This document shows, piece after piece, positions 10,218-49,100 of a stretch of 64,000 nt of DNA. Below the pieces are notes generated by a model. That model was given only the letters and a program-made list of their open reading frames with translations. It was not told the DNA's origin and searched no databases. The translations under genes and the position numbers were made by a program. The stretch is from Candidatus Gracilibacteria bacterium CG17_big_fil_post_rev_8_21_14_2_50_48_13 (GTDB lineage: Bacteria; Patescibacteriota; Gracilibacteria; 1-14-2-50-48-13): NCBI GenBank assembly GCA_002783265.1, contig PFFG01000006.1:62001-126000 (forward strand). The letters are read 5' to 3'. Each line of letters opens with the position of its first letter. The first letter of the stretch is position 1.

Positions 10218-10248
10218 AAAAACCGCTCTATGGGAAGAGCGGTTTTTT
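10216..10248. terminator. Bidirectional terminator between the yidC operon and the surface operon
   Basis: A 9-bp stem AACCGCTCT / AGAGCGGTT with a 6-nt loop, flanked by an A run on the left and a T run on the right. It serves both the plus-strand yidC operon and the minus-strand surface gene ending at 10254. Confidence 0.92.
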
Positions 10249-10253
10249 GTTGG

Positions 10254-13200
10254 TTAGTTTCGGAGGAGATCATAGACTCCACCGAGAATTTCCCTGAGAC
10301 CTGGAGGCGGGAAACTGTAGATACGGCCATCAAAGTTCACCGTAATACCGGAGCTTTGAATAATATCGTTGATGCCACTTCCACGAACCGTCACATTGGG
10401 ACGACTTGGGATGAGATCGTCAATGTTTCCATAGAGAGCACCGTTCACCACAAGAGTTTGCGGCTGCCCAGCTCCACTTTCATAGTACGATCGCCAGTCA
10501 GAGGTGCCACGAATCTTACCCGTACCGAGCACCACAATCACTGCATCAATACGTTTAACACGGGGGTGAATAAAGATATCTCCATCACGTACGATGATGG
10601 CAAAAGACGGTGTCCCAGCGCCATTGGCGTACGCTATATCACTATTAATGGTGACATTTCCTTTCTCAAGATAGATCGTACTACGCTCTGCGAGGGTTAG
10701 CGCACTGGAGGCAAGGGATCCCACCGTGATATTTTGATTCTTCGCAGAGAAAATACGTGTTTTGTCCGGGCGAATATTGAGGCGAGACAAGTCTGATTCA
10801 CTCAGGATGGAGACAGAACTTCCCGCGGTCTTATTCTGATCCGCAACGATAGTAATACCGGAAACCGTATTCCCGAATCCTAGATTCGTGCGATTCACGG
10901 CAGATTGGTTATTCTCCAGTTTCACACCAGAGATGGCGTTACCAACCCCCATAACGTTACTAAAGACCCGTGTAAAGTTTGAAAGCCCCTTCAAAATGCC
11001 ACTCGTGAGCGTATCACCATCGTTCACCGTAATAAGGAACGGACGAGCAATGGTCAATTCCTTCACGCCATTGTTTGAAGGAGACTTCATAAAATAATTG
11101 TAATTCACATCGTTCGTCTCTGGGGAGAACTCTTTGCCAGGAAGGCTTGTGCGCGCAATTCCCGTGACCATAAGATCCACCGAATCACCTGGATAAAGAT
11201 TCGTCACGATAACAGGTTTTCGTTGATCTTTCGCAAAGTCCGTAAAGTCAATACCGATGGGGTTTGCCGACGCCCCTGCAAAACTGTTACGATTACTGGA
11301 TGGTTTCGGCGTTGCCTTGACACCAGTTACCTGGAAGCTTCCTTCTTCCTTCGGTACGCAGTTTTGACCTTCCGAATTTTTTCCATTTGTACACGTATCA
11401 TCAAAGATTTGCGCAACAGACCCCTGGCCACGCACGTATCCCATGGATGTTATTTGATAACCCTTTTTGCCGTCGGGGCGAAGATTGTAAATTTCAGCAC
11501 GTTTGGTGACAGTCTGTGAGGTCGTTGATTTGTTGGAAATATTGGTCGTAAAAGTTGCGACATTGTAATCTCCCGCTGACTTAGGATCCACTTCGATTTC
11601 TACACAGGCACAAACACCTGGTCGGCATTCCTTATCATCATGCACAATAATTTTTCCATCATCTGTACACGTGTCATCTGGGCCAGTGTAACCGTTGTCA
11701 TCACATTCTCTATCGAGACATGTAGGGACCTTAAAAGAAGGACCTGGATAAATCTGACCATCTAAACGAAGGCGCCAGTAGTAGGTCTTTTCGCCCTCAA
11801 ATTTGAGTGTTCGATTATAGGGTTCAAAGTAGCTAAATCCGTCAGGACCAGTAGTCTGAGTCAAATTCGATACATCCTTTCGGAAGTAGGTCGCAAACGT
11901 AGGATCCGTACTCACTTCTAGCACTTTATTTCGCGCTGAGGTATTCCACTGAAAACTTGGACTATAGACGGGGTTCGCACAACTTGGCAGCACGCCTAAA
12001 CGAAGACCATCCTGCAGATTTGCACAATCCTGCACCGTTGCTTCATACCATGATGAGAATCGTGTATCTTTCCCCACTCGCCATCGAAGGCGGTCTCCCG
12101 CGCGCAAATAAGGCGTTTGTCCGTTACTCGAGCGAAGTGACTGGTGATCCATCGATCCATAGTTTGTGGATACTGTCTGTGTATAAACCGTCATAGTGCC
12201 GCCATTGGGCGTATGCTCGAGGGTCAAGGTATCGCCAATCTGTGCATTCGCCCACACAAAACGGGCAAGGGTAACCCCAGAAACACAACGTTGATACGTC
12301 CCTGGGGTTTCCGCATTGCTTGGTGGAGGTGTAATGATGCCTGTAGAACCTCCTGTCGTACTACCCGTGTTGCCACCAGTAGAACCGCCTGTAGAACCTC
12401 CTTGAGACTTTTTCACCACCAAATCTACCATGACGAACATATCATTTTCCTTACTTCCGACCATTCGCCCATGGCTATAGGTGAAGGTCTTTCCAGAAAG
12501 CGAGAAAGCGCCACCATTCAAGGGGAATGGATCCCCAACGACCTGCAGCTGACATTTGTCATTCACAATAGATCCACACTTCGCAACGCGTCCTGCAAGC
12601 AGTGAACTGTTGCCTTGAATCCAGCCAAGCTCGTACCCGGTTGGAAGATTTACAAAAGCAGCATCCTCAAAGGTCGCGCTGACATTCGGGATGTAACCAT
12701 TTTTGTATGCAGTCATGGTCAGATAGTCCGGTTCTTCCACAAAGGCATTTTTCGCGGTAATTTTGCCGCTGACTGTTCTATTGTCCAACGTCACATGCAC
12801 CTGCACATCACGGGCTTCATAGCGGCTATCCTTGTAGATTGTTGATGCATTATTGTGCACATACAGGTAGGCACGCACCACATCGCCTTCCTTCAAATCC
12901 GAGGAGGTATAGTCATGAAATTTTCGCTCATCCGCATTTGTAATCTGCACTGTTCCGTTACTTCCAAGACGGCCCACCTTTCGCAGCGTCACAAACTCTC
13001 GTTCATCCATGTAATTTGTGTCCGTACACTTTCCATTGGCGTAAAAACCATTCTGCTGACAGAGTTTCCAGTTATCGCGAAAACGGTTAAACGTATTATA
13101 CGTTGCGCCATATATCGTATCTTCGTTGAGAGTAACACCATTATTGCTCGATAAAAAATCCGCACCATAGAGTGGTGTCGGCTTTGCATAGGCAACAGTC

Positions 13201-13277
13201 AGTGTTGAGGTCACCATCACTGTGAGGAGCAGCCCGTGAAGGAGGGATTTTATTTTGTGTGACAAGAAAGTGTGCAT
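10254..13277 (-). CDS. Large secreted surface protein (1007 aa)
   Basis: Signal peptide at about residues 1-31 (cleavage near VAYAK). Visible regions are: N-terminal beta-rich domain (35-285); a flexible Gly/Ser/Thr repeat linker (291-312) built from GGSTGG units; Fn3-like domains (325-510); a cysteine- and Asp-rich stretch at about 516-556 (spaced CxxxxC and CxC pairs); a further beta domain with asparagines; and a C-terminal region (780-1007) with short strands and many V/I/N repeats that could form a beta-helix. No transmembrane anchor or sorting signal is visible, so it may be held by another protein. It is the last gene of a five-gene cluster with 18-27 nt spacings. No enzymatic motif recognised. 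Confidence 0.85.
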   Translation of the reverse strand: MHTFLSHKIKSLLHGLLLTVMVTSTLTVAYAKPTPLYGADFLSSNNGVTLNEDTIYGATYNTFNRFRDNWKLCQQNGFYANGKCTDTNYMDEREFVTLRKVGRLGSNGTVQITNADERKFHDYTSSDLKEGDVVRAYLYVHNNASTIYKDSRYEARDVQVHVTLDNRTVSGKITAKNAFVEEPDYLTMTAYKNGYIPNVSATFEDAAFVNLPTGYELGWIQGNSSLLAGRVAKCGSIVNDKCQLQVVGDPFPLNGGAFSLSGKTFTYSHGRMVGSKENDMFVMVDLVVKKSQGGSTGGSTGGNTGSTTGGSTGIITPPPSNAETPGTYQRCVSGVTLARFVWANAQIGDTLTLEHTPNGGTMTVYTQTVSTNYGSMDHQSLRSSNGQTPYLRAGDRLRWRVGKDTRFSSWYEATVQDCANLQDGLRLGVLPSCANPVYSPSFQWNTSARNKVLEVSTDPTFATYFRKDVSNLTQTTGPDGFSYFEPYNRTLKFEGEKTYYWRLRLDGQIYPGPSFKVPTCLDRECDDNGYTGPDDTCTDDGKIIVHDDKECRPGVCACVEIEVDPKSAGDYNVATFTTNISNKSTTSQTVTKRAEIYNLRPDGKKGYQITSMGYVRGQGSVAQIFDDTCTNGKNSEGQNCVPKEEGSFQVTGVKATPKPSSNRNSFAGASANPIGIDFTDFAKDQRKPVIVTNLYPGDSVDLMVTGIARTSLPGKEFSPETNDVNYNYFMKSPSNNGVKELTIARPFLITVNDGDTLTSGILKGLSNFTRVFSNVMGVGNAISGVKLENNQSAVNRTNLGFGNTVSGITIVADQNKTAGSSVSILSESDLSRLNIRPDKTRIFSAKNQNITVGSLASSALTLAERSTIYLEKGNVTINSDIAYANGAGTPSFAIIVRDGDIFIHPRVKRIDAVIVVLGTGKIRGTSDWRSYYESGAGQPQTLVVNGALYGNIDDLIPSRPNVTVRGSGINDIIQSSGITVNFDGRIYSFPPPGLREILGGVYDLLRN
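12342..12404 (-). repeat. Gly/Ser/Thr repeat linker inside the 1007-aa protein
   Basis: Short tandem units encoding GGSTGG / GGNTGS-type residues. It acts as a flexible linker between the N-terminal domain and the Fn3-like part. Confidence 0.75.
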
Positions 13278-13297
13278 AGGGGTGCGAGTGAGTGGTT

Positions 13298-13534
13298 CTA
13301 AAATCCTTCTAACGTTGTTCCTGTCTGTGCCGGCTCCTGTATTCTGTTATCGAGTTGATTGTCTATATCAGGAGCCAGGACAGCCGGCTCGCTGATAGTT
13401 ATATTCTCATTTCCATTCATGGTATTCGTGGACACGGAGGTCCCTGTATCCTTGTTCTTCTCTGGAGCAGCTTGCCCACATGCTGTCAAAGGCAAGACGG
13501 CGGCACAGCAAAGCAATACTAGAATTTTTTTCAT
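13298..13534 (-). CDS. Small lipoprotein (78 aa)
   Basis: Begins MKKILVLLCC and has a lipobox LTAC, so the mature protein is lipid-anchored at a Cys near residue 19. The rest is about 58 residues of Ser/Thr/Asn/Asp-rich, probably disordered chain. A TTG nine bases upstream is a weaker start. It sits between the 1465-aa and 1007-aa genes. Its role is unknown; a membrane tether or chaperone for the large neighbours is one possibility (inference). Confidence 0.7.
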   Translation of the reverse strand: MKKILVLLCCAAVLPLTACGQAAPEKNKDTGTSVSTNTMNGNENITISEPAVLAPDIDNQLDNRIQEPAQTGTTLEGF

Positions 13535-13552
13535 ATTTGTCAATGGTTGGAA

Positions 13553-16500
13553 TTAGAAGGTTCCGAGAATTTCCGTACTCGGGGAGGTTGGTTTCGCCTT
13601 TGTTGGTGTTGGTGTTGGCGTCGGCTTGACCGGATCTGGCGTTGGTGTTGGTTTCTGGGTCACGGGTTCCGGTGGAATACGCGATCCCGGTTCTGTTGGC
13701 TTTTGCTTTGTTGGAATCGTCTCACGAGGTATTTCCGTGGAAGGCTCCGTTGGTTTCAAAGGAACCTTATTTGGTGTAGGCGTAAAGACTGGTGTATCAG
13801 GAACAAAACTTGCTAAGAGTGCGAGAAGCGCAACAGGAATGGTCACAGCGTTCTTTTCAATGAGGAGCTTAAGATCGTAGGCCTCTTTGAGCGCGACAGA
13901 TCTCGTAACAGATGGCATTTCCGGAATCGGAACTTCTCTGCTCATACCTGGTTTTGGCAGATTCAGCTTTGTTCGAAGTTGCCGCACAACGCTGAGAATA
14001 CTTGTAGGAGCGACCTGCACATTCATACATCCGCGCTTCAAGTACACCGTATATTTCAGTTCAACACCATCAATGTTTTTGATAATGTCGCCCATAAAAA
14101 TATTCTTGTCATTGTTTTTCACGAGAATGCTACTTCCTCGTCCATCAATGCCCATATTCACGAACCTGAGTGTACCGGGTAGGTTACTGACCGGGCGAAG
14201 ATTTTGCGCCACTTCAAACATATCTTTCTCCTCCACAAATTTCGCAATGAAATCTGCTTCGGCATATCCTTCCACCGTTTTGCCATAGACAGGGAGATTT
14301 TTACGGAAGCGAGGCAGATAACTCGTCAGGGCATGGAGCATCGTATCCGCACTCGTTTCATGACCACGGGATGTATCCACAGAACGGCTTTGCCCACGCT
14401 GTCCTCCAAGAAATACCAGCGTATTCATAAGCCCTGCCAATTCCTGGGCCGGGTTCTTCAGTTTCTTTGCTGGATCAAGAAACCGTACTGCATCAGGCGA
14501 AATGTCTGCAGGTGTAAAAATTCCCAGGTTACTATAGGCATTGGCTCCAACGCGATCAGAAGAGGTTGGCGACACAAACTTGAGACCGCGAAGACGTGCT
14601 AAAATTGCCTTGTCTCGATTCCCCGGCAGCTTGGATATATCGCCAAGACGTGCGAGGAGGCGTTCGTAACTCTCAGCGCGTGCTAGCATGGTCGCAAATC
14701 GTGTTTTCTGCTCCGTAACATCCTTTGCTTCCGTGGGAATAAGCTGAAACTGTGTTCCCATACCTTGGTCAAAGGCAGTTTCGTCGATAATCATCAGTTT
14801 ATCAATGGTTGCTCGGTCTGCAGATGTAGGATTTTGCATCATGCGTTCAAGCTCTGCTGCACTATTGACGCCATAAAAGGACGCCATTGCCTGATTGATC
14901 TGCGCAAGCTTTTTGCGATAGGCATCTCTTGTCGCAATGTATTCCTGAATGTCTGGTCGTGCCTTTTCCGCCTCACTGTACCCTTCCGCAGAAGACTTGG
15001 AAAGCGTGCGATACGACGTCTGCTCGTTGTAAATTTCTCGTGAGAGGGGATCCTTCATAGCAGCCTCGGCCTTTCCTTGCTCTGCTTTGTAGAGATCCAG
15101 TTTTTGTTTCACTGCCGCGAAGGCCGTCTGCATTGGTGCCAGATGTGTTGATTCAAAGGCAGTGAGCAGTCGCGCCTGTTCCTCTGGCGTTGCCTTTTCG
15201 GCCTGGCTAATAATCTCCTGCATTTTCGTGCGGAGAGAAGCAAGGTTGTTATTGGCAACAAAGGCACGAGCCGTTCGAACATAGTCTGCAAAAGCCTCAC
15301 TCACTCCACGTCGGCCAGCATCTCCCAGAAGAGCCGCCATCTGTTCCTGGCTGAACTGGTCCAGTGAATGGTGCGTCGCCATGAGATTCTGCTGGTAGCT
15401 TTCTAGAGAGCCACGCAAGCGAGACTTCAGATCATTCCCCAACTTGCTTTGCGTAATCGACTCCGAGAGAGTCGAATAGAGTTCCGTTTCCTTTGAAAGC
15501 TGTGCATAAAAGGATTCCACATCCGTAAGGGCGGAACCGAGGGTGGCGACATCTTTTCGTGCAAACTTCTGTGCATGCAGCTGTGCAAGTTCCTTTGCTC
15601 TATCCCCTGTGCCGTAGCCTTCATTGGCTGCACCATACATTTCCAGGGTTGATCGCAGGAGTTCATCGACGCTACTTGCACTGACAAAACTTGCTAAGGC
15701 GCCACTGGCGAGTTGTTTTTCTGGTTCATCCGACCAAATAGTGAGCGTCAAAATACTACGGGCTGCAGCAAATCCCGTAATTTGCGCATGCATAGCCTCG
15801 ATATGCGGTTTGAGTATCGCACGAGCTTCATCAATAGTCATGGAACCCTTTGCCTCTTTTACTTGCCGGAATGCCTGTGCAAGAGCATCGCCCCGTGTTT
15901 CCATCTTGGACTCAAAAGTTGCGAGCAAGCTATCATAGGTCGGAGCTGAGGCAATGTGGGCATCAAGCTGTGTCTTTACAGCCTCAAAGACGCGCTTTGC
16001 AGCGGCAATCTTTTCTGAAGCGGAGCTACTCTCCAGCCCAGCTGTATCAACTGAAACGGGGATTCCTGCTGAAGAGAGAGTCTCAAGTGCATGTTTTGCA
16101 TAAAGAACCGCTTGGTTGGCCGTTTGTTCCTTTCCCTGGGACAAGGTCTGCATATACTGCTGATATTCCCCGGAAGCGAGAAGTTTCGACAACTCGGCAG
16201 CAGGCAGATTCTGGCTTAGTGAAGAGAAAAACGGTGTTTGGTCTGGAAGACGCACAGAAATGCCTGCAGCGCGACGTACTTCATCCATGAACCCAAGCAC
16301 CACAATACCCTTCTCCCGTAGCTGTTTCTCCAGTAAAAGAAGCTTGTCTATTTGCGGTTTGAGTGCAGCGTCCTCGAGATTTTTGCCCGTGAGCTGCGCC
16401 GTGAGTTGAGTATATTCCTCATAGAGAGGCACTACCCCACCCGTATCCGCACTTTTCAGCTGAGCCAATTGTTGATCGAGCGCTGATTTTTCTTCTGTTT

Positions 16501-17950
16501 TCGCTTGTTCCCAAGGCATACCGGTGCGCATATCGGCGGCACGTCGCTGCGTTGAGACTGATCGATGCTGCATAAGGACTGCAAGGTTCTGCAGCTCAGC
16601 CGAAAGCTTCGCTTTATCTGCCTCTGATGCTGCCTCCAGTTGCTTTCCTTTCGCGGCGTACTGTGCAAACAACTCGATATCATTGCTGCTCACTGTCTTC
16701 AGCACTGCCACATTCCCGAGACGCAAATCTCCGAAGAGTGTACCCCAGAGCGTGACCAGACCTAGTGCCAAAGTTCTCCATGTAAGTACCGCCGGTGCAG
16801 CAGCAATACTTGCCACCAGCATGCCGACCGTCACCATCCACCCCGCAAGGGAAATGAAAGCGGCCAGTTCATCGGGATTTCCCTGAAACTTCTCACCACC
16901 TATTTGACGAATCATAGCTGTTTCCAGTTCTGTGTTCCGTGGAATATTCATGCGGTGCACAAAACCCACGACTCCTCCAGGATTAAAGGACGGATCCGAC
17001 ATCTTTTGAGACAACATCGTCATGATGTTCTGAAACTCGGGATTGGAAGCAATATTCGGGTTTGTACGTACCATCTCAAATCCTGCGAGTTTTTCACCTA
17101 TCGCATCCGTACTTGCATCCTTCACGGCTTCAAAATTGACCTGGGCAAACGAAAGCCCCATGTGCGCCACTTCATTTTGAATAGGTGCTTCTTCACGTGA
17201 TCCAGAAAGTACCTTTTCAAGGCGTTTTGCTGCTTCTCCTGCAGTAATTTTTGACACCTTTGCTTCTGATTTCGCTGATGGAAATGCAGATTCAAGCATT
17301 TTTACGCCTTCAGCTGTTGTTTTCTGGAGTAATTGTATGAGTGCGTCCGCCGTGCTGCGCTCTGCATTTTCAGGCAGTGATCCCAACCCGGCAAGAACAT
17401 GTTGCAAAGCATTTCTATACACATCCATAAGCTTATCCGCATCCACTTTCCCTGATCGCTGCAAAGCATCTGCCGTATCTTCTAGGGGCAAAAGAACACC
17501 GAAAGCTTCGGAAAGACTTGAACTCAGTAGTGGATAGGAGCGTAGGGCCATGGCAAGGGAGCGTTCTAGCAAAACGGCATCAGAGCGTCTTTCCTTCGAT
17601 TCACGGGCCTCCTGCAAAGTAGCTATAGTCTGTGCCTGTTTTGCCGGCAAATCTACTTTTTGCTGAGTAATTTCCTGCTCAAGGGCACGGATTTCTTGTT
17701 CGTATACTGCTTTAAGCGCGGCAAACTCAGCGCGTTGTGCGGCCGCTTTATTTGCGCGCTCTGTTGCGCTCAGTGTTTTCATGGAGTCGATCATGGCTAT
17801 ACGATCCTCGACATTTTTTGCCGCGTAATCCAAAAGACCTTTCCATTTTGCAAGGCGTACCTGGAGATCATCCAGTTTTTTGGTCGTATCGACCTGGGGA
17901 GATTGCTCCTTTTGCTGTTCCTGGAGCGTGTGGGTTTCAAAAGGTTTCAT
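13553..17950 (-). CDS. Giant coiled-coil membrane protein (1465 aa) with Pro/Thr tail
   Basis: No N-terminal signal peptide. Residues 1-350 are charged and helical (EQEIRALEQEITQQK type). A hydrophobic pair lies at about 358-410 (FISLAGWMVTVGMLVASIAAAP and a second helix). About 900 residues rich in Ala/Glu/Lys/Gln coiled coil follow. A single hydrophobic helix at about 1365-1385 (VTIPVALLALLASFV) leads into a C-terminal tail of about 80 residues made of Pro/Thr/Glu/Lys repeats (TPTPTPT and two PSTEI copies). One topology consistent with this is a cytoplasmic N-terminus and long cytoplasmic coiled coil, with the Pro/Thr tail exposed outside; this is inference. No known family recognised. It is the central gene of the five-gene operon. 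Confidence 0.82.
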   Translation of the reverse strand: MKPFETHTLQEQQKEQSPQVDTTKKLDDLQVRLAKWKGLLDYAAKNVEDRIAMIDSMKTLSATERANKAAAQRAEFAALKAVYEQEIRALEQEITQQKVDLPAKQAQTIATLQEARESKERRSDAVLLERSLAMALRSYPLLSSSLSEAFGVLLPLEDTADALQRSGKVDADKLMDVYRNALQHVLAGLGSLPENAERSTADALIQLLQKTTAEGVKMLESAFPSAKSEAKVSKITAGEAAKRLEKVLSGSREEAPIQNEVAHMGLSFAQVNFEAVKDASTDAIGEKLAGFEMVRTNPNIASNPEFQNIMTMLSQKMSDPSFNPGGVVGFVHRMNIPRNTELETAMIRQIGGEKFQGNPDELAAFISLAGWMVTVGMLVASIAAAPAVLTWRTLALGLVTLWGTLFGDLRLGNVAVLKTVSSNDIELFAQYAAKGKQLEAASEADKAKLSAELQNLAVLMQHRSVSTQRRAADMRTGMPWEQAKTEEKSALDQQLAQLKSADTGGVVPLYEEYTQLTAQLTGKNLEDAALKPQIDKLLLLEKQLREKGIVVLGFMDEVRRAAGISVRLPDQTPFFSSLSQNLPAAELSKLLASGEYQQYMQTLSQGKEQTANQAVLYAKHALETLSSAGIPVSVDTAGLESSSASEKIAAAKRVFEAVKTQLDAHIASAPTYDSLLATFESKMETRGDALAQAFRQVKEAKGSMTIDEARAILKPHIEAMHAQITGFAAARSILTLTIWSDEPEKQLASGALASFVSASSVDELLRSTLEMYGAANEGYGTGDRAKELAQLHAQKFARKDVATLGSALTDVESFYAQLSKETELYSTLSESITQSKLGNDLKSRLRGSLESYQQNLMATHHSLDQFSQEQMAALLGDAGRRGVSEAFADYVRTARAFVANNNLASLRTKMQEIISQAEKATPEEQARLLTAFESTHLAPMQTAFAAVKQKLDLYKAEQGKAEAAMKDPLSREIYNEQTSYRTLSKSSAEGYSEAEKARPDIQEYIATRDAYRKKLAQINQAMASFYGVNSAAELERMMQNPTSADRATIDKLMIIDETAFDQGMGTQFQLIPTEAKDVTEQKTRFATMLARAESYERLLARLGDISKLPGNRDKAILARLRGLKFVSPTSSDRVGANAYSNLGIFTPADISPDAVRFLDPAKKLKNPAQELAGLMNTLVFLGGQRGQSRSVDTSRGHETSADTMLHALTSYLPRFRKNLPVYGKTVEGYAEADFIAKFVEEKDMFEVAQNLRPVSNLPGTLRFVNMGIDGRGSSILVKNNDKNIFMGDIIKNIDGVELKYTVYLKRGCMNVQVAPTSILSVVRQLRTKLNLPKPGMSREVPIPEMPSVTRSVALKEAYDLKLLIEKNAVTIPVALLALLASFVPDTPVFTPTPNKVPLKPTEPSTEIPRETIPTKQKPTEPGSRIPPEPVTQKPTPTPDPVKPTPTPTPTKAKPTSPSTEILGTF

Positions 17951-17977
17951 AAGGTGGGTTTTTGTGTATGGAAAGGA

Positions 17978-18283
17978 TTACGCGAGCATAAGATCTTCAG
18001 GATCCTCCTCAAAAGACTGAGCAAAGGCTGTGAGCCGATGCTCGAGATCTTGTGCTGTATTTGTCAGTCGCTGCAGCTCAGATCGAAGCTCATCATCGAG
18101 CACTTTCCTGTGCTCGCGATATTCCGCCTTTAATTGCCCCTTCTCCTCGTGATAGCTCGAAAGCGCCCCGAGAAACTCGGCACGCTTTTGCTCGTCTAAA
18201 GACGATGCTCTTTCCAGAAGAAATGCTTTCGTGTGATCATCAAACAGGGGGATGCTCGCAAGGAGCTGGGAAATCTGTTGCAT
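17978..18283 (-). CDS. Small coiled-coil protein (101 aa)
   Basis: Mostly one long charged helix (residues 28-95) with heptad-like spacing of Leu/Ala, ending in an acidic tail. No signal peptide or membrane segment. 26 nt after the sorting-tail gene and 27 nt before the 1465-aa gene, so probably cotranscribed. It could pair with the coiled coil of its large neighbour (inference). Confidence 0.7.
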   Translation of the reverse strand: MQQISQLLASIPLFDDHTKAFLLERASSLDEQKRAEFLGALSSYHEEKGQLKAEYREHRKVLDDELRSELQRLTNTAQDLEHRLTAFAQSFEEDPEDLMLA

Positions 18284-18309
18284 GGGAAGAGGAGAAGAAA
18301 AGAGCGAAA

Positions 18310-19026
18310 TTATGCACGATCCTGACGACGACGGCGTCGTCGGGCTGTGAGAATACCTGCTGCACCGAGTGCAAGGGTCAGGGTCAAAAAGGTTTCAGGA
18401 CCTGTCTGTGGCACCACAGGTGCCTTCGTTGTCACAGGTGTCACCGTCGTTTTCACTGGTGCTGGTGTATTGGTTTGCACAGGTGCAGGTGTACTACAAG
18501 AAAGTGCAACACGCCGTGTTTTTTCCTGGAAATTAATGAGCATATTTCCGGTCACTAACTGAGGAAAGTCCTGACACATCGTTTCAACGAGCTGGACACT
18601 GAAAGCAATTTTTTCTTCACAGTTACATCCGGCAGCGAGATTAATAGCGGGAAATTCAATAGCACGGGAATCACGAGGGACGCCACCATTTCCTGGATCG
18701 ATAATCTGACCCAGCTTAAAGAGTTCCTCTGAAAGGACACGTGGAACAAAGTTGTTTAAATCACCGTTTCCGACATTGCGGATTGTCGCCGTAACGCGGA
18801 GAGTGTCTCCAGGTTTTGCAGGTGTCGTTTCTGCGTTGGTGTTGGTACGCATATTGACGACATCGAAGGTTGCTTCAACGATGGCAGATCCTGTGGCGAC
18901 CATGCCTGTACCATTCGTGTTGGTGTTTGTTGAGCTTACCTGCGCGGAAGCTGGAGCGAGCATAGTCGCTGCGAGTCCAATGACCGCAAGAAAGCGAAGA
19001 ACATGTTTGTGGGTGTTTGTGACCAT
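18310..19026 (-). CDS. Secreted protein with PQTGPE sorting-type tail
   Basis: 238 aa from ATG 19026. An upstream TTG at 19056 would lie at or above the predicted transcription start. Signal peptide at about 1-28 (LAPASAQV). A beta-sandwich domain (about 45-165) resembles the DUF11/CARDB-type repeats (GDTLRVTATIRNVGNGDL) and includes a Cys-x-Cys. A Pro/Thr linker follows. The tail is VPQTGPE, a hydrophobic helix and a run of six Arg, which is the layout of a sortase-type or PEP-type anchor signal. No sortase gene is present in the window. First gene of the surface operon. Confidence 0.82.
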   Translation of the reverse strand: MVTNTHKHVLRFLAVIGLAATMLAPASAQVSSTNTNTNGTGMVATGSAIVEATFDVVNMRTNTNAETTPAKPGDTLRVTATIRNVGNGDLNNFVPRVLSEELFKLGQIIDPGNGGVPRDSRAIEFPAINLAAGCNCEEKIAFSVQLVETMCQDFPQLVTGNMLINFQEKTRRVALSCSTPAPVQTNTPAPVKTTVTPVTTKAPVVPQTGPETFLTLTLALGAAGILTARRRRRRQDRA

Positions 19027-19059
19027 AGAACCAAGGTGAAAAAAATTAGGGTTCAAAGG

Positions 19060-19068
19060 ATTATATCA
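19060..19068 (-). promoter_or_regulatory. Extended -10 promoter of the surface operon
   Basis: The minus strand reads TGA-TATAAT, a perfect consensus extended -10, 34 nt before the ATG at 19026. No good -35. It supports the ATG start of the first gene. Confidence 0.65.
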
Positions 19069-19089
19069 CAGCCCAGCCGTATTAGCGAA

Positions 19090-19119
19090 CAAAAAAACAC
19101 CCCGCAACTGCGAGGTGTT
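19090..19119 (-). terminator. Terminator after rpsG
   Basis: The minus strand forms an 11-bp stem AACACCTCGCA / TGCGGGGTGTT (one mismatch) and then at least seven T. It ends the rpmB-rpoBC-rpsL-rpsG operon and lies just upstream of the surface-operon promoter. Confidence 0.85.
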
Positions 19120-19134
19120 CTTTATTTGCGAGCT

Positions 19135-30006: not shown

Positions 30007-33000
30007 CTACTTCGTCTCGCTCGTTTCCTCCATCACAGGAGTTCCTACCTTTTTCTGCTCTTCCTCCGCCACCTGGGCCATTTCCACATAGGCTGCATTA
30101 TCCAAAATCTTGCGACTCTGGAGATACACCTTACCGTCAAAGGCTTCCACGTGCTTTGGATCAATACTCATGAGTTCGAAGACATAGCTGATCTTATAGA
30201 GATGCAGTTCCTTCTCATCAATACTGTCGCGAGCAAAGATCACCTCTTCCCCTTCTTTTTCAAGCAGGAAGCGTTCTTCAATAATGCGTCCGAAGAGACC
30301 AAGCGTTCCCTCCTTCACATCCTTGAATTCACTGAGTGCGATAACCTTTTCATTTTCCATCGGTGCGATGAAGAAAGCAAGGTATTCCATACTGAGATCC
30401 TGCTTAATGACAGGAAGATCAGAGCTATAGACAAAGGTATTTCCTACCATGGTCTTTTCCATCTGCAGAAGATCTTCTTTCGTCAAGCTATACGCCACCG
30501 TATCTTTTCGCGTCAGAAGCATGTAGAGGAGACCTGCTGCAAGAAGCAACAAGGGGAGAAGCATACCTAGTACCCACCAGATATTCCCTGCATCGTCAGC
30601 CCCCGCAAGACTTGCACGAAGTTTTCCGTCTGCGTCCGCTGTGTAAGAAGCATCCTTCTCACCAACCGTGAAGGGCACCACAACGGTCTTACTACGTCGT
30701 CCATCAGGATAGGTCGCATAGAGGGACACCTTGTGTTCTCCTACCTCGAGCGGTGTAGCAGAAACCACAATGAAGTCGCCGTAGGTCGTGTCCGCAATAA
30801 TGGAGGAAGAGGTAATAATACTCTGGAAGTGTGACACCACCGCCGTACCGTACACCGTCTTTCCATACACATGCGGCTTACGATCCTTGATCGTAATTTC
30901 TTCGACCACAGGTGTTGGAATATCGAGTTCAGGATTGATTTCTATCTGAGCAAGAGGTGACATATCGACGATACGTCCGTTTTCATCAAGAAGTCCTGTG
31001 GCGAGTGTATGTTTTCCAGCAGAAAGTTCTTCGTCTGGAATGAGCACACATCGACCATTAGCATCCGCTGTTGTCTTGTTGAGAATCTTCTGCTCACCGT
31101 TTGCAAGGAGCTCAATGAGAGCCACATTTGCGCCAGGTTTTGCAGCACACGTCAGCATCGGCTTCGTGTCGTTGGTAATCATACCGGCAGGCAAGTTGGT
31201 GAAGAGAACACCCTTCCCTGGCTTGCTGTTAGGATCAAGAGGATCCGTGCTGTATGCAAGAACCTCATCTCCATCCGTAAAGCCATCGCCGTCAGAGTCA
31301 CGCTTGAAGGGATCCGTTCCCATATCCAGCTCCTGAGCATCGGAAAGTCCATCACTATCCGTATCACGCATACCAAGGGTATCGTACGCGGAAGGAAGCA
31401 AGGTGACACCTGGGTTCTCCTTCAGGAATGCCTCACGACCAGCAACATAGGCTGGATCCGTTGGAGACTGACCAAAGGGTGAAGTGACCAAGTTCATGAT
31501 TCCTCCAAAGTCTGGAAGTTTCAGTCCATCGAGCGTTGTTGCCGTTGAGGCAGGCTGCGTCGGTGTACTGGTTGAGGGAACCTGTGTCGTGGAAACCGGG
31601 GTCGTCGATACGGGCGTCGAAACTGCAGGCGCAGAGGTTCTCGTCGTCGTTGTCGTTACAGACACGGGGCGCTTTGACAAGGCATCAACTTCGCCAATCA
31701 ATGCATCCATCTTATCGAGAAGAGCGCTGAGATCCGTTACAGGAACCGTACTACCATCAGCATTTGTTGCCCCATTTGTGTTTTCGTTGCTTGTCGATGT
31801 CAGAGGAGCCGTTTCACCATCAAACATAAAGTTCGATTGTGATGCAATAGTCTGGCGATTACCAGAAGCATCCACCGCCGTTGCGGTTACAGAGTACCGA
31901 TGACCCTTCGTAAAGGCAGGAGCCATTGGCAGTGACCACAGACCACTACTCATCATCGTTGCACGGAAAACCTGACGATCGTTTGTTCCACTTGGGAAGG
32001 CAGAACCGTTGTAATATCCACGTGCCGTCTCATCGTAGGCAACGACCTCCACATAGGAGACACCGCTACCACCCTGAGCATCAACTGCTGTTCCTTGAAT
32101 CTGTGCAACACTCATGACGTTACTTCCATCTGCTGGATACGAAATCATGGATGTTGGAGGCGTAATGTCCGCCGTAGTCGTTGCCGCTGGGACAGCAGGC
32201 GTTTGATTCTGATAGAGTGGCGTCGGCAAGTAGACCGTTCCTCCACCCGAACCTCCTGAAGACGGAACGACAACCACCTGTGGCGTTGGTACAGAGAGAA
32301 TCGAAACCGTAGGAGTCGTCGACCCACCAGTACTTCCACCCGTTGACGTGTTGGTATTGGTATTGCCCGCACCCGTGTTCGTATTCGTGTTCGTCGCATT
32401 CGTGTTCCCATTGCCTGTATTGGTATTCGTATTTCCTGTATTCGTATTGGAGTTTCCGGCATTGGTATTGCCGTTGGATGTATTCGAATTACCGTTACTT
32501 GGAGCAGGAATCGTGATCGTTGTCGTGGTTACTCCCTCATTACCTGACGTATCCTTCACATACACCTTGATGACGTAGGTACCAGGATCTGAAAGCACTG
32601 GGGAGAGCGTGTACGATCCAAGACCAGTACCACTATCGAAGGTGGTTACATCCTGACGAAGCTCTGTTGGGCTTGTGAATGCACTTCCATCCCAGAATCC
32701 GGTTCCCTGCTTTTCAAGAGAAACCTGCACATTGCCCGCGATAGTCGCCGGCAGACCACCTGCATCACTTGCGGAGAAGTTCACTGCAGAAACAGAAGCT
32801 GGAGAACCAGTCGGAGAAGTAATGGCAACAACGGGAGCCGTGGAATCGGGAACAAATGTGGAATCGTAAGTGAAGCTTGCTGTGTGGGACGTTGCCTCAA
32901 CGTTGAAGAACGTATCGAGGGCAAAACTCTTTACTTCATAGGTATGCCCTGTTTGCATTGCTGCCTGCATGGCACCTGAGTTGAAATCCCATGTGCGGTT

Positions 33001-36000
33001 TGGAGCACTTCCACCGAGAGAGGCGTCATCAAAGCGCTCAGCCGTAGCAGAGAAAGCCGTAGAACCATTCCACCAAAGTGGAGAAGCTGGATTCGTGATA
33101 TCCTTCACTGCAACGCGCACTTTGGAAACATCCGTGTCGTCTGTCGCCGTACCATGAATATCAACCAACGCTGGGTCATTGTAGGTTGGATTGAAGGCTG
33201 CAAGTGTACTGGTTGGTGGATTCGTTTCCGTGTTAATACGGAAACGCACGACGTCAGACCAAGCAGAATATTTCTTTCCACCAATGGCATCGTAGGTACG
33301 TACACGGATCTGATAATCCTTTCCAGATGCGTTGTTTGGGAGTGCACAGTTGTAGACCTGACCACAGCTAGAAAGCAGAGAGAAGTCAAAGCTTGCTGTT
33401 GCACCCGATTCGAAATAGAGTGAGTCAAATCCCGTCATTCCGTCGAATCCAGCAGGATCGCGCATCTGATCAAAATTCCAAATGAGATTATCTGGGTCAT
33501 TCACTGCATCATCGGCCGGGAATACACCCGTAGGATATTCCACTATTTCCATCTGATAGATGAGTTCATCACCTTCACGATCCGTTCCTGTAAAGTCAAA
33601 ACGTGGCTGACGAGTATTCGTGAATTCCTGAAGAGCCGCTGGTGTGACAATCACTGGTTTGTCAGGTGTCTGATTTTCAGGGTCATAAATTTCTGCAGAA
33701 TCCTGCGTTAAATTCACTCCACCAAAGACTGCAATTTTCCCCATGGCATGTACAGCATTTGCGAGGCCGGACAAGATCGTCATAGCAAATCCAGAACGTT
33801 GCGACTTAAGCGCAAAAGGAGCTGAGAGCGTACTGGGAGCCGCAGGGTCCCATGTATAAGCACGAGGCCCAACCAGGGTATATTTCCCGTTATTCTGCAG
33901 CTGAGACTTTGGCGTTGTCATAGAATCCGAGAAGGTCGGACCAGCAGTCGTTGTCGCAGCACCTAGGGTGTAGAGTTTAGATGTTGTAATTCCTGGATTC
34001 GTAGGACCAAAAGCCATGCGGTATCCAACACTGGTTGCACCGCTCATAAATCCTGTCACATCAGAATTTGTCGTATTTCCACCATAGATAAGCACCTTGG
34101 AAAGATTGTCATACTGCAGTACATCACCAAAGGCCTGATTCGGTCCAGCGCTACTCACCACCGTGGCCGTATCTGCCGTCACGTTAATCTTATAAATGTT
34201 TGCGCTTCCACCACCAATTGCATAGACATCACCAAGTGCGTCAGAAATAAGTTTGTGACCATAACGAGCATCGGTTGCCGAAGTCAGCGTACGAAGGGTG
34301 TTGGTCTGGGTATTATAGACCATTAAGTCACCGAGAATCCCCGTTTCACAGTAGATCACAGCAAAACCACCTGAAATACATGCATAGTAACTTCGTCCAA
34401 AGGTTGACCCACCAGAGAGCAAGATCTCGTTACTACTCACAGGAATCGCTGCATGAAATGCTCGAGGGGTAAAGGCAGAACCGCTTGGCGTTAAAGCTGT
34501 AAAGGTTTCCGTCGCAGGATCAAAGACTTCGAAGGCCTCAGCTGCTGGCAATAACCCTGGGCTAGCAAAGAATCCCGCTGGGTTTCCCTGGCGCTTTCCA
34601 CCAATAAAGTAGATTTTCCCATCCTGCATTTTCGTTGCTGTGAAACCATAGCGGCCCGCACGCATTTCTTTTGACGGGTCAGTACAATTTCCAGATCCAT
34701 CCCGTGCCGGACACAAATCTTCAAAGGCATTCGTTACTGGGTTGTACAGTTCTACCTTTTTCACTTCCAAACCAGTATAGACATTTCCTGGTGTTGGCGC
34801 TGTAGAAGAGTCATCAATTCCACCAACAACCAGATATTTTCCATAGTTCGGAGACGCAGGGTTTGCGTTAAGTTCAAAGGTTTCAGCAAAGGAGCGAGGA
34901 AATTTCATATCACCGGCAGCATACTGGAAACGCTTCATATCAAAACTCTCCGCCGTACGCAACCGCGTAGTACTATCGCTGTTACCGCCAAAAATCATGA
35001 ATTGTGCATTATTTGCAGCAGCACCTTCCGCGGAAGTCGTAGGAAGAAGAACACCACGAGCAGCATAACGTCCATTCGTAAGCATAGGAGAAGACGGTGC
35101 CGAAAACGCCAGACTCGTCACATCGAACGTTTCAAAATCCCGCATTCCCTTCCCCAGCACGTCACGTCCTCCAAATATATATGCCTTTTTCGTTGAACTA
35201 GTACTTACAGAATCTTCATACCCTACCACTGCTACTGCATCACGACGCGCAGTCGTAAGAGAAGTCCCCAAGGCCGTCACCACAAAGTTACCACCTGCAA
35301 AGGTAATCAGATCCGCACTTGTATTTAAGGTTCCTGTATTCGTTCGCTGTCCACCAGCAACAAGCGTACGAGGAGATGCTGGAGTATCCACATTGATTAC
35401 AATCCCACCAAGACGCTCCTGCGTTAAGGTAGGTGTCACCGTTGAAACTGCCTTTGTTGCCACATCAAACTTCTCCATAGACTTCAGAGGTGCGGAGGAT
35501 GCACCGCCCTTACCACCAAGGAAAAGAATTTGCCCCTGGGTTCCTGCATTCGGGTAAAACATCGCATTATGCTCCGTTCTGGCAGTGGCCAGTGTTCCTG
35601 TAGCCTCTGTAAGCACATTATTCGTCACGTCATAGACGTAGACCTTATTGCGCAAAACACCCGCCGCATCCTCACCACCAGCAATAACGATAAAATCATC
35701 CGCACCAACAGTATATTTGGTCACAGACATGTTCTTAGCCGTCTCTGTCATTGTTGGCAAAGGATTTGTCGGGAGATTATAGTAGGTCTCAAAGTTTTGT
35801 GAGACAGGGTTGTACACTTCGAGCGTGTTCACTGCTGTTCCCGCAGCATTCTGACCTCCGACAAAAAGAATTTTGCCGTCGCTCAGCGCGACCGTCTTGT
35901 GAAATGCCCTAGGAGTAGTAAGTGATTTTCCTCCTCCAGACAAGAGAGTAAATCGCCCATCTTGCGGATTATATAGTTCTGCGGAATTCAGATAATTCGT

Positions 36001-36276
36001 TCCATCAAAACCACCAGCGATCAGGACTTTTCCTTTATGAATACCCGTCGTAATCAGATTTGCCGAAAAGGCTTCTCGAGTGGTTGTCATCTGCCCCGGA
36101 ACCATGCGCGTTTCTAAGAAACGCGCATCAGCCGCCGGTAACTTCGGTGCGAAGGGGAAGGTCCCCATAACCGTTGTCACGAGCATAACAAGTAAAACAA
36201 CGGCATAGGTTATCCGTTGGGAGAGGGTGTGGGTGCGAGAGATCGTGGTGACCCCTGCGCGAGGACGTTTTTTCAT
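30007..36276 (-). CDS. Giant kelch-repeat surface protein with cytoplasmic tail (2089 aa)
   Basis: A signal/anchor lies at residues 22-50. Residues about 65-860 carry kelch repeats (recurring GKVLIAGG, YNPQDG, VGG), forming one or two beta-propellers. Ig/Fn3-like domains follow (865-1250), then an Asn/Thr/Gly repeat linker (1258-1315), more Ig-like domains, and a Ser/Thr/Pro linker. Two thrombospondin-type-3 calcium motifs (DTDSDGLSDAQE and DSDGDGFTDGDE, about 1635-1680) precede another Ig block. A transmembrane helix sits at about 1896-1925. The final 164 residues are polar and would be cytoplasmic. This suggests a type I membrane adhesin or receptor with an intracellular domain. Transcribed from a TTGACA promoter with a 150-nt leader. 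Confidence 0.87.
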   Translation of the reverse strand: MKKRPRAGVTTISRTHTLSQRITYAVVLLVMLVTTVMGTFPFAPKLPAADARFLETRMVPGQMTTTREAFSANLITTGIHKGKVLIAGGFDGTNYLNSAELYNPQDGRFTLLSGGGKSLTTPRAFHKTVALSDGKILFVGGQNAAGTAVNTLEVYNPVSQNFETYYNLPTNPLPTMTETAKNMSVTKYTVGADDFIVIAGGEDAAGVLRNKVYVYDVTNNVLTEATGTLATARTEHNAMFYPNAGTQGQILFLGGKGGASSAPLKSMEKFDVATKAVSTVTPTLTQERLGGIVINVDTPASPRTLVAGGQRTNTGTLNTSADLITFAGGNFVVTALGTSLTTARRDAVAVVGYEDSVSTSSTKKAYIFGGRDVLGKGMRDFETFDVTSLAFSAPSSPMLTNGRYAARGVLLPTTSAEGAAANNAQFMIFGGNSDSTTRLRTAESFDMKRFQYAAGDMKFPRSFAETFELNANPASPNYGKYLVVGGIDDSSTAPTPGNVYTGLEVKKVELYNPVTNAFEDLCPARDGSGNCTDPSKEMRAGRYGFTATKMQDGKIYFIGGKRQGNPAGFFASPGLLPAAEAFEVFDPATETFTALTPSGSAFTPRAFHAAIPVSSNEILLSGGSTFGRSYYACISGGFAVIYCETGILGDLMVYNTQTNTLRTLTSATDARYGHKLISDALGDVYAIGGGSANIYKINVTADTATVVSSAGPNQAFGDVLQYDNLSKVLIYGGNTTNSDVTGFMSGATSVGYRMAFGPTNPGITTSKLYTLGAATTTAGPTFSDSMTTPKSQLQNNGKYTLVGPRAYTWDPAAPSTLSAPFALKSQRSGFAMTILSGLANAVHAMGKIAVFGGVNLTQDSAEIYDPENQTPDKPVIVTPAALQEFTNTRQPRFDFTGTDREGDELIYQMEIVEYPTGVFPADDAVNDPDNLIWNFDQMRDPAGFDGMTGFDSLYFESGATASFDFSLLSSCGQVYNCALPNNASGKDYQIRVRTYDAIGGKKYSAWSDVVRFRINTETNPPTSTLAAFNPTYNDPALVDIHGTATDDTDVSKVRVAVKDITNPASPLWWNGSTAFSATAERFDDASLGGSAPNRTWDFNSGAMQAAMQTGHTYEVKSFALDTFFNVEATSHTASFTYDSTFVPDSTAPVVAITSPTGSPASVSAVNFSASDAGGLPATIAGNVQVSLEKQGTGFWDGSAFTSPTELRQDVTTFDSGTGLGSYTLSPVLSDPGTYVIKVYVKDTSGNEGVTTTTITIPAPSNGNSNTSNGNTNAGNSNTNTGNTNTNTGNGNTNATNTNTNTGAGNTNTNTSTGGSTGGSTTPTVSILSVPTPQVVVVPSSGGSGGGTVYLPTPLYQNQTPAVPAATTTADITPPTSMISYPADGSNVMSVAQIQGTAVDAQGGSGVSYVEVVAYDETARGYYNGSAFPSGTNDRQVFRATMMSSGLWSLPMAPAFTKGHRYSVTATAVDASGNRQTIASQSNFMFDGETAPLTSTSNENTNGATNADGSTVPVTDLSALLDKMDALIGEVDALSKRPVSVTTTTTRTSAPAVSTPVSTTPVSTTQVPSTSTPTQPASTATTLDGLKLPDFGGIMNLVTSPFGQSPTDPAYVAGREAFLKENPGVTLLPSAYDTLGMRDTDSDGLSDAQELDMGTDPFKRDSDGDGFTDGDEVLAYSTDPLDPNSKPGKGVLFTNLPAGMITNDTKPMLTCAAKPGANVALIELLANGEQKILNKTTADANGRCVLIPDEELSAGKHTLATGLLDENGRIVDMSPLAQIEINPELDIPTPVVEEITIKDRKPHVYGKTVYGTAVVSHFQSIITSSSIIADTTYGDFIVVSATPLEVGEHKVSLYATYPDGRRSKTVVVPFTVGEKDASYTADADGKLRASLAGADDAGNIWWVLGMLLPLLLLAAGLLYMLLTRKDTVAYSLTKEDLLQMEKTMVGNTFVYSSDLPVIKQDLSMEYLAFFIAPMENEKVIALSEFKDVKEGTLGLFGRIIEERFLLEKEGEEVIFARDSIDEKELHLYKISYVFELMSIDPKHVEAFDGKVYLQSRKILDNAAYVEMAQVAEEEQKKVGTPVMEETSETK
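32331..32502 (-). repeat. Asn/Thr repeat linker in the kelch protein
   Basis: Short tandem codons for TNTN, GNTN and NTNTG units, about 57 residues. A low-complexity spacer, of a kind often seen in Patescibacteria surface proteins. Confidence 0.8.
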
Positions 36277-46197: not shown

Positions 46198-49100
46198 TTA
46201 TCGCCCCGTGCGTCCACGCAACGGAAGTGCCTCAATGATTAGATGGATCACGTCCTTCAAGGTAATACGCTGATCGGGCACAAAAGACTCCCCTGCCCGG
46301 AGCACCACCTTATCTGTAGCAAAGCGCACATATCGTCCATACCACTGACGGTAATCGAGAGGAAATACCTCGAGAGCACCATCCAGCACATCTTCCTGCG
46401 AGAAGAACTCTAAAATAATTTTTAACGCTTCCGCTTCTGAGACCTGCTGATCGGGTCGAAATAACCCATCATGGAGATAGCCAGATACGATTTTATATTT
46501 ACGCCCAACCTGTATATACAAGAAGTTTGTATGTTCAGCAGACACGTCTGGAAACAGAGGCACTCCAGAGACATCGTAGGAGAAGTCTGCACAAGAAATT
46601 TGTAAGAGATACTTGAGCAATTCGGAGCGGGTGACGGGTTCATTGACATCGAGCACCTTTTGCCCCTTGGAGAAATTCACGCCAATTTTCTGCACTAAGG
46701 AAATGTCACTTTTAAGCTTTTCGGAAATATCGTTGGGGACAATATACGAATACTCAGCCTTCAGCTGTGAACAAACAGATTCTTCGTAGGATGCAGGCGC
46801 TCCTGAGCCATTATCACGAGGGGGTAGCGCTGGCACTGAAGATGTGCGTCCGCCTACCTCAGGAAAGAAAAGAGAGGAGAGCGTCGCAATCGTTGCATCC
46901 AATAGGCCATTCGATGCAGGTGCGCTGCCATGGATTCCCTCACCATCAGAAGATGCTCCTCTCGTTTGATTCAGTAAGGATTGCAATAGACCTGAGACCG
47001 CAATTTGACGCATATTGCCTTGTGCATCCGTAAATTGAAGAACAGGAGGCAACTGTGAAGAAGGTATACGTGCCGCGGGCACCTCAGTAATAGACGGCTG
47101 TTGATCATTCTGAACACTGCTCTGATCAGAAGAAGATGCATTTTGTTGATCACTCTGTTGTGCTGCACCTCCTCCCCCACCCGTATACAGCGGGATAACC
47201 GGCGCCGCACTTCCCACTGTGAACGAAAAGGACCCCGTCCCTGTATTTGGTATGGCAGCCTTATCATCCGCACTCCACGTCACCACGACGTTGCCAGGGG
47301 CTAGTGCCGATGCAGGGGTAATAACCACCGTATACCCAGCGCCGACAGCGGTCAATGAGCAGGAAAATCCCACCTGACACACACCTGCGATAATCGCATG
47401 TTGCGCCCCTACATCGACCGTGATGGTCGTACTTTCAATGCCCGCTTTATCATCCGACAGCTGCAGGGTTATGGCCTGAGTACCTACGACACCTGTGGTA
47501 TTGTTGATCGGTGTGGTACTTGCTAGTGTTGGCGCTGAGGTATCCGCTAATGAAAAGGTTGATGTTGCGCTGACGGGGCTCAAGTTTCCTGCAGCGTCTT
47601 CTGCTGCGATACGGAGATAGTATGTCGTTTCAGGAAGCAACCCTGTAGAAGGGATTGCAATATCTTGCAGGCGACCACCAGCCAGTATAGGTATAGTCAG
47701 GTTTTGTACACCACTGTCATAGAGTACACTCGTAAACGCTGCATCTGATGCCACTTCGACTTGATAAGCACGGATAACATCTCCCAAATCCGGATCACTG
47801 GTAAGAGCGCTCACCACCACCGAGGTACTGGTAAGCCCCACTGGGTTAGTTTGTGCCGTCTGGGCTCCAGCAGTTGGAGTATTTATAAACACCCCTGTTG
47901 GTGCATTGGGCGCCTGATTCGTCGTCCCATACGTGAGCTGTACATTATCGAGAGTTGTATACTGTCCGCCATTGGAGAGGAGAAATGCCCGAAATTGCAG
48001 CGTTCCGGTCCCGACTTGTAGCGGGAAAAACGGCAGTCCACTATGCATCTCCGCTGCAGTATTCGTTTGCGCGGGATACCCCGCACCAGTTTCTGGTGTC
48101 CATGTGGTTCCATTCCAGTAATACCAGGTCGTTCCGTTGTTCGTGACCTGATACTCTACTGAGCCTTCATTACCGTTTCCCATCGTTTGTACAAAACCCG
48201 CGAGCGTTTGAAATGCAGTCCCAAGTGACTGTGTAATAACAGGTGCAAGTGCTGAATAGGCCGAAGGCAACAATCGCACAAGCTGTAAACCAGGCGTGTA
48301 GGTTCCGTCACCACGAAGTGTCGCCTGATATTGCGCATAGCGATTACTACCAATATTCGGCGCAACTTGCGTTGGAGGATTTAAAGTCGTATTGCTGGAT
48401 TCATCATAGTAGGTCGACGCTGTACCATCAGGACCCACAAAGGTTTCGGTATCACAGGCAGCATCGTCACAACTGCGCAGTTGTAGCAAGACTTGTAAGC
48501 CATTACGAAGATAATTTGTCAGCACCTCTCCTGCCGTAAGTACGCGAGCATAGACCGCAAATTCATCAAGCAACACGCGCGCAGCAGGACGAATGGGGGT
48601 ACTTGTCCCCACGCTGGCAGCGCCAATTTCTAAAGGTTGTGCTGTATCAGGAATATTGAACACACTCGCCTGTGTCGCAATCTGGGCACCCTTCTTATAC
48701 AGACGAAGAATACTTCCATTAAACGTAGCGGCTATGTGGTTCCAGCCGCTATCGAGCGTCACCCCCTGATCTATCCCGCCAAAACTTGCATACACTTTGT
48801 TTCCCGTAAAGGCAAAGCCATAGGCACCATGTTTACCTGCACCAATAATTTTTTCATCATTATTATCCGAAACGGAAGGCTGGACACCATCAAGCACGCT
48901 CGCAACTTTTCGTAGGGTAATTCGATCAATAAGCATACTTGCATCGTAACTATAGCCACCATTCATGTAGAAACTGATACGCCCTGGCCCTGAAAAGGAC
49001 ACAAAAGATGGGTACGTCGTCACTGGCGCGACATCATTTGCATCAGCTACAGCTCCCGCTGCCCTTGTCGTTCGTGTGCGTCGAAGACCGTCTTTTGCCA

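Follow-up and report, generated by a model that had tools for sequence, protein, structure and literature searches.

The genes analysed here lie in a 64-kb window (the whole stretch of DNA that was analysed) from a CPR bacterium with a genome of 1.28 Mb, 97% complete. Its relatives were found at class level only (Peribacteria/Peregrinibacteria/Gracilibacteria), and the nearest named matches of its rpsG, at 54-59%, include a Candidatus Peribacteria and several Candidatus Peregrinibacteria. All five ORFs (P1 to P5) were found on the minus strand, with intergenic gaps of 26, 27, 18 and 20 nt. An extended -10, TGA-TATAAT, was read directly from the sequence at 19068-19060 on the same strand. Beyond the other end of the operon, a bidirectional terminator at 10220-10245, common to the yidC-jag operon, folded at about -18 kcal/mol in each direction, with energies far past those of shuffled sequences (z -6.9 and -5.2). 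A second hairpin at 19086-19125 on the minus strand, the rpsG terminator (-20.2 kcal/mol, z -5.5, far beyond shuffles), parts the operon from the ribosomal genes upstream. The neighbours are rpsG, rpsL and rpoC on the upstream side and the convergent yidC and jag on the downstream side. The close spacing, the consensus extended -10 and the bidirectional terminator described by an earlier note on this DNA were all recovered, and the five genes were confirmed as a real operon. Three further very large surface-type proteins are encoded in the window, at 30007-36276 (minus strand; Kelch plus TSP3 repeats), 46198-51855 (minus strand; DUF2341, laminin G and SLH) and 58021-64000 (plus strand; bacterial Ig-like).

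A profile search, which the earlier note had called for, placed none of the five proteins (0/5) above the cut-off of any Pfam or NCBIfam family. The class set searched comprised 353 genomes, which are kin to the host at class level only and some of which are TGA-recoded. Conservation of the operon 3' of rpsG was rejected, as none of P1 to P5 was present there in the relatives searched. The first gene, P1 (18310-19026, minus strand), encodes 238 aa with a signal peptide, a DUF11-like domain (TIGR01451, E 0.0018, under cut-off), the motif VVPQTGPE, one transmembrane (TM) segment and the Arg tail RRRRRR. The start at ATG 19026 was favoured because the alternative TTG at 19056 sits only 4 nt past the -10. 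Against PF00746 the sorting signal of P1 scored 14.1 bits, the Pfam cut-off being 20 bits. The sorting motif, TM segment and basic tail, together with the single sortase encoded in the genome, mark P1 as sortase-anchored, although it stays below the curated Pfam cut-off. This likeness to LPXTG/sortase-anchored surface proteins, seen in the PQTGPE-TM-Arg ending, concerns P1 only. Homologues of P1 belong to one family (best E 3e-11) whose members are 184-277 aa long, end in xTGP or similar tails and are encoded on their own next to recO and ftsX. The earlier note had placed all five genes in a single apparatus. Since P1 stands alone in relatives, five genes are too many for one apparatus, and P1 is best seen as a passenger on the shared transcript, distinct from the rest and anchored at the surface by sortase.

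The last gene, P5 (10254-13277, minus strand), encodes a 1007-aa secreted protein with a Sec-type signal peptide ending AYA-KP, a conserved N-terminal domain (~35-190) and a C-terminal solenoid-like domain (~800-1000). P5 matched the C-terminal family profile with E 1.3e-43, covering 244 of the 266 positions. The C-terminal domain of P5 matched large ORFs in many class genomes, and in several relatives the N-terminal domain pointed to those very ORFs. The alignment of the C-terminal domain (A2) showed conserved solenoid-like repeats and a final motif of the YDxRIxxNTPPGL type, which reads FDGRIYSFPPPGL in the host. Sequence searches of the PDB found no relatives of P5 or of the giant proteins described below, and, as far as sequence comparison reaches, the P5 family is uncatalogued. 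In many P5-like proteins a PxTGxGD-like motif occurs internally, ~270 aa short of the C-terminus and just ahead of the conserved domain; it recalls a sortase motif but has no TM segment after it, and it is absent from the host P5.

The AF2 model of the P5 C-terminal domain is a run of short strands (pLDDT 73.6). Foldseek gave nothing significant for this model (best E 1.3); the most probable match was ComZ (prob 0.38, E 1.8), the Thermus competence tip pilin (6qvi), which is a pilin with a large beta-solenoid (PMC6561018). The P5 domain may be a similar beta-solenoid, and P5 might then be the adhesin at the tip of a fibre resembling a type IV pilus, with the other proteins serving export or assembly. 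However, the resemblance is not significant, and P5 carries a Sec signal peptide, with no pilin N-terminus, prepilin motif or prepilin cleavage site. A pilus tip is regarded as very improbable.

In relatives, the genes for P5-like proteins were found with genes for giant proteins (giants) of 1,450-2,950 aa, which are without signal peptide and have a low-complexity tail. The giants fall into a single superfamily, with E 1e-7 to 1e-66 in alignments between groups; taken singly, giants gave E 1e-8 to 1e-58 against the profile of at least one other family, while several comparisons of single giants with family f16 failed. Giant and P5 genes are usually spaced by 2-50 nt, or one small lipoprotein or TM gene lies between them. 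The giant-positive set was defined by a giant C-terminus profile and comprised 63 genomes, apart from a weak match in G001 (E 3e-4). A strong P5 (E<1e-20) was found in 54 of the 63, immediately downstream on the same contig and strand in 46 and on other contigs in 8, and in 0/16 sampled giant-negative genomes, whose matches were weaker and mostly partial. Among the 80 genomes searched, the host alone had a strong P5 without a giant. In many relatives the locus extends from a divergent tpiA to holA, unlike the host locus, which is flanked by rpsG and jag; the 64-kb window contains no tpiA.

Between P5 and P3 lies P4 (13298-13534, minus strand), which from its ATG encodes a 78-aa lipoprotein with lipobox LTAC and a tail ending GTTLEGF. 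Its positional counterparts are lipoproteins or single-TM proteins of 44-178 aa between giant and P5 (families f16, f20, f30, f31, f3, f34 and part of f33), and this small anchor gene is absent from between giant and P5 in the f18 loci that were read. The anchors of f30 (L263, L264, L266 and L255) are 174-178 aa long and have an extracytoplasmic domain. An assignment of the f30 anchor as a cohesin was rejected, the match being limited to one member and below cut-off (E 0.0018). P2 (17978-18283, minus strand), a 101-aa helical protein, gave marginal matches and no convincing homologue among the 353 class genomes. Its slot is occupied in part of f33 by helical proteins of 155-190 aa encoded 9-39 nt upstream of the giant, with no detectable relationship to P2. 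By eye, such proteins in L251, L253, L267 and L281 look like a single family.

The order P3-P4-P5 is thus that of giant, anchor and P5 in relatives. Of the gene order that the earlier note had expected to be conserved, the P3-P4-P5 part recurs class-wide, with a P2-like slot added in one family, and P1 does not. Five unrelated surface proteins could have become co-transcribed by chance after insertion between rpsG and jag, as would fit the stand-alone relatives of P1, the want of homologues for P2 and P3, and the absence of P1 to P5 3' of rpsG in the relatives searched. But P4-like and P5 genes come after a giant in many families, and the host preserves this order at another site, so such an accident appears distinctly unlikely. 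The recurrent order indicates that P3-P4-P5 is not a chance set of adhesins, and in this respect the earlier note was right. From the co-occurrence of giant and P5, P3-P4-P5 looks like one unit.

The giant slot in the host is filled by P3 (13553-17950, minus strand), a mostly helical protein of 1465 aa with no signal peptide and with hydrophobic segments at 373-389 and 1368-1384. Its 80-residue C-terminal tail holds 23 Pro and 18 Thr and ends STEILGTF. Like the giants, P3 is large, lacks a signal peptide, has a low-complexity tail and is encoded directly upstream of P4-P5. No significant homologue of P3 was found among the 353 class genomes, and a peptide-pattern scan of 84,980 species returned none beyond P3 itself. 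Three class matches within E<=0.01 (below 18 bits, E 2e-4 to 6e-3) were of coiled-coil type or short and hydrophobic, and were rejected as chance. Against giant profiles P3 scored the same as reversed or shuffled controls and its hhalign probability was never above 1.4%, and the giant profile found no giant in the host genome. Membership of P3 in the giant family was rejected, since it failed hhalign and HMM tests that positive controls passed. On this point the case is weaker than the earlier note had it: P3 is a counterpart of the giant by position and architecture but not by profile homology, being either a replacement or a protein diverged beyond detection.

For the second of these, that P3 is a true giant orthologue, speak the shared slot, tail and neighbours, the similar size and the presence of P5 in a genome with no other giant. 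The only Cys of P3 in 1465 aa also lies within C-x-N, 157 aa from the end, and in the giant alignment no columns but this C and N are invariant, and they mostly fall 87-174 aa before the end. However, the 95 residues around the P3 Cys scored below nearly all shuffles, whereas all eight left-out giants (8/8) beat their own shuffles in the positive control, and C-x-N was rejected as proof of homology. Together with the hhalign result, this leaves orthology somewhat unlikely. The giants of relatives are predicted to contain in their middle an antiparallel meander of 8-11 strands (model of about residues 425-1414 of the giant at L214 1869-6323) that resembles transmembrane beta-barrels, with Foldseek prob reaching 1.00 but a best E of only 0.008, and local pLDDT ~50-78. 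Bacteria of this kind are thought to lack an outer membrane, which makes a barrel-like meander odd. P3 showed no sign of the beta meander predicted in the giants of relatives.

The C-termini of giant and anchor were compared in 19 pairs including the host. Matched tails were first noticed in four of the initial ten pairs (permutation p 0.001-0.02 on the ten); those pairs are partly exploratory, and nine later pairs were fetched as a test of the idea. The last residue was identical in 12/19 pairs, a number reached in 0 of 50,000 permutations, and differed in 7/19. Likewise, none of 50,000 permutations equalled the score summed over the final 6-20 residues. When permutation was kept within families and the host pair was left out, the observed match was reached in 0, 9 and 22 of 20,000 permutations when 6, 8 and 12 terminal residues were compared, and in 11/20,000 when the final residue was taken alone. 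Segments of the tail farther from the C-terminus matched too, weakly but above chance (97/20,000). The codons at identical tail residues were the same in 13/40 only. In L267 both giant and anchor end NPDQSG, encoded by six different codons; in L278 the tails APQSSGNIDTTGF and APQSTGIIDPSGF have several codons in common. Recent DNA copying of giant tails into anchors was rejected, as the codons mostly differ. In the host, P3 (EILGTF) and P4 (TLEGF) both end in F, a match that fits the pattern but is neither specific nor significant alone. These results indicate a tendency for giant and anchor of one genome to have matching C-terminal peptides, specific to that genome.

That giant and anchor tend to end in the same peptide suggests a common partner for both C-termini. 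P5 does not carry the tag, and the possibility that P5 itself is the docking partner by containing it was rejected for want of signal. The matched ends might instead be protease tags, or reflect a shared sequence bias, rather than docking signals. Many of these tails have small and hydrophobic residues at the end, like the ligands of PDZ-type proteases, and the weak match of upstream segments would fit this explanation also. Yet the match is pairwise within genomes, peaks at the last residues and is missing from P5, and we consider protease tags or bias unlikely.

We infer that the operon core P3-P4-P5, with P2 as an accessory, may represent the form that an undescribed envelope cluster of the class takes in this lineage, forming a complex for contact with other cells; this is a real possibility, a little short of probable. 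P5 would be exported via Sec, with its C-terminal solenoid-like domain displayed outside the cell, where it probably contacts a partner cell. P4 would be a lipid-anchored peptide on the outer side of the membrane. P3 would stand in for the giant and do its job: a long scaffold of helices, held in the membrane and exposing the Pro/Thr tail outside. The C-termini of giant and anchor may both bind, or be read by, one common partner, which would join scaffold and anchor into one complex. A bolder proposal for the class is a cell-contact apparatus of giant scaffold, anchor and secreted solenoid protein, joined by a genome-specific C-terminal tag, in which the host has swapped in an unrelated scaffold; taken as a whole, it is doubtful.

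Papers on the class describe large surface proteins, for which they propose attachment to other cells (PMC4736985, PMC8080830). Candidatus Peribacter riflensis, of the same class, is described there as having proteins that are very large and variable, for the most part exported, and presumed to act in attachment (PMC4736985). These proteins are Cys-rich and were noted as a set, whereas P3 has its single Cys, and a conserved giant-anchor-solenoid gene order was not found in the accessible text of that description. For Vampirococcus lugosii, also of the CPR, giant membrane proteins of 1392-4163 aa are proposed to recognise and hold its host (PMC8080830); they have named domains such as DUF11, PKD, WD40 and integrin, whereas P3 and P5 have none above cut-off. 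Huge proteins are also stated to be enriched in Peregrinibacteria (PMC11573180). No description of a giant-anchor-solenoid gene unit or of matched tails was found in the accessible portions of the open-licence literature.

Little is known about how CPR bacteria attach to other cells, and most of their giant proteins remain unclassified. If the scaffold was indeed exchanged, the central part of a surface machine would have undergone non-homologous replacement while the rest was kept. A fixed-order unit of uncatalogued families with pairwise-matched C-termini supplies defined partners and a short peptide motif, both of which are open to biochemical testing without growing the organism.
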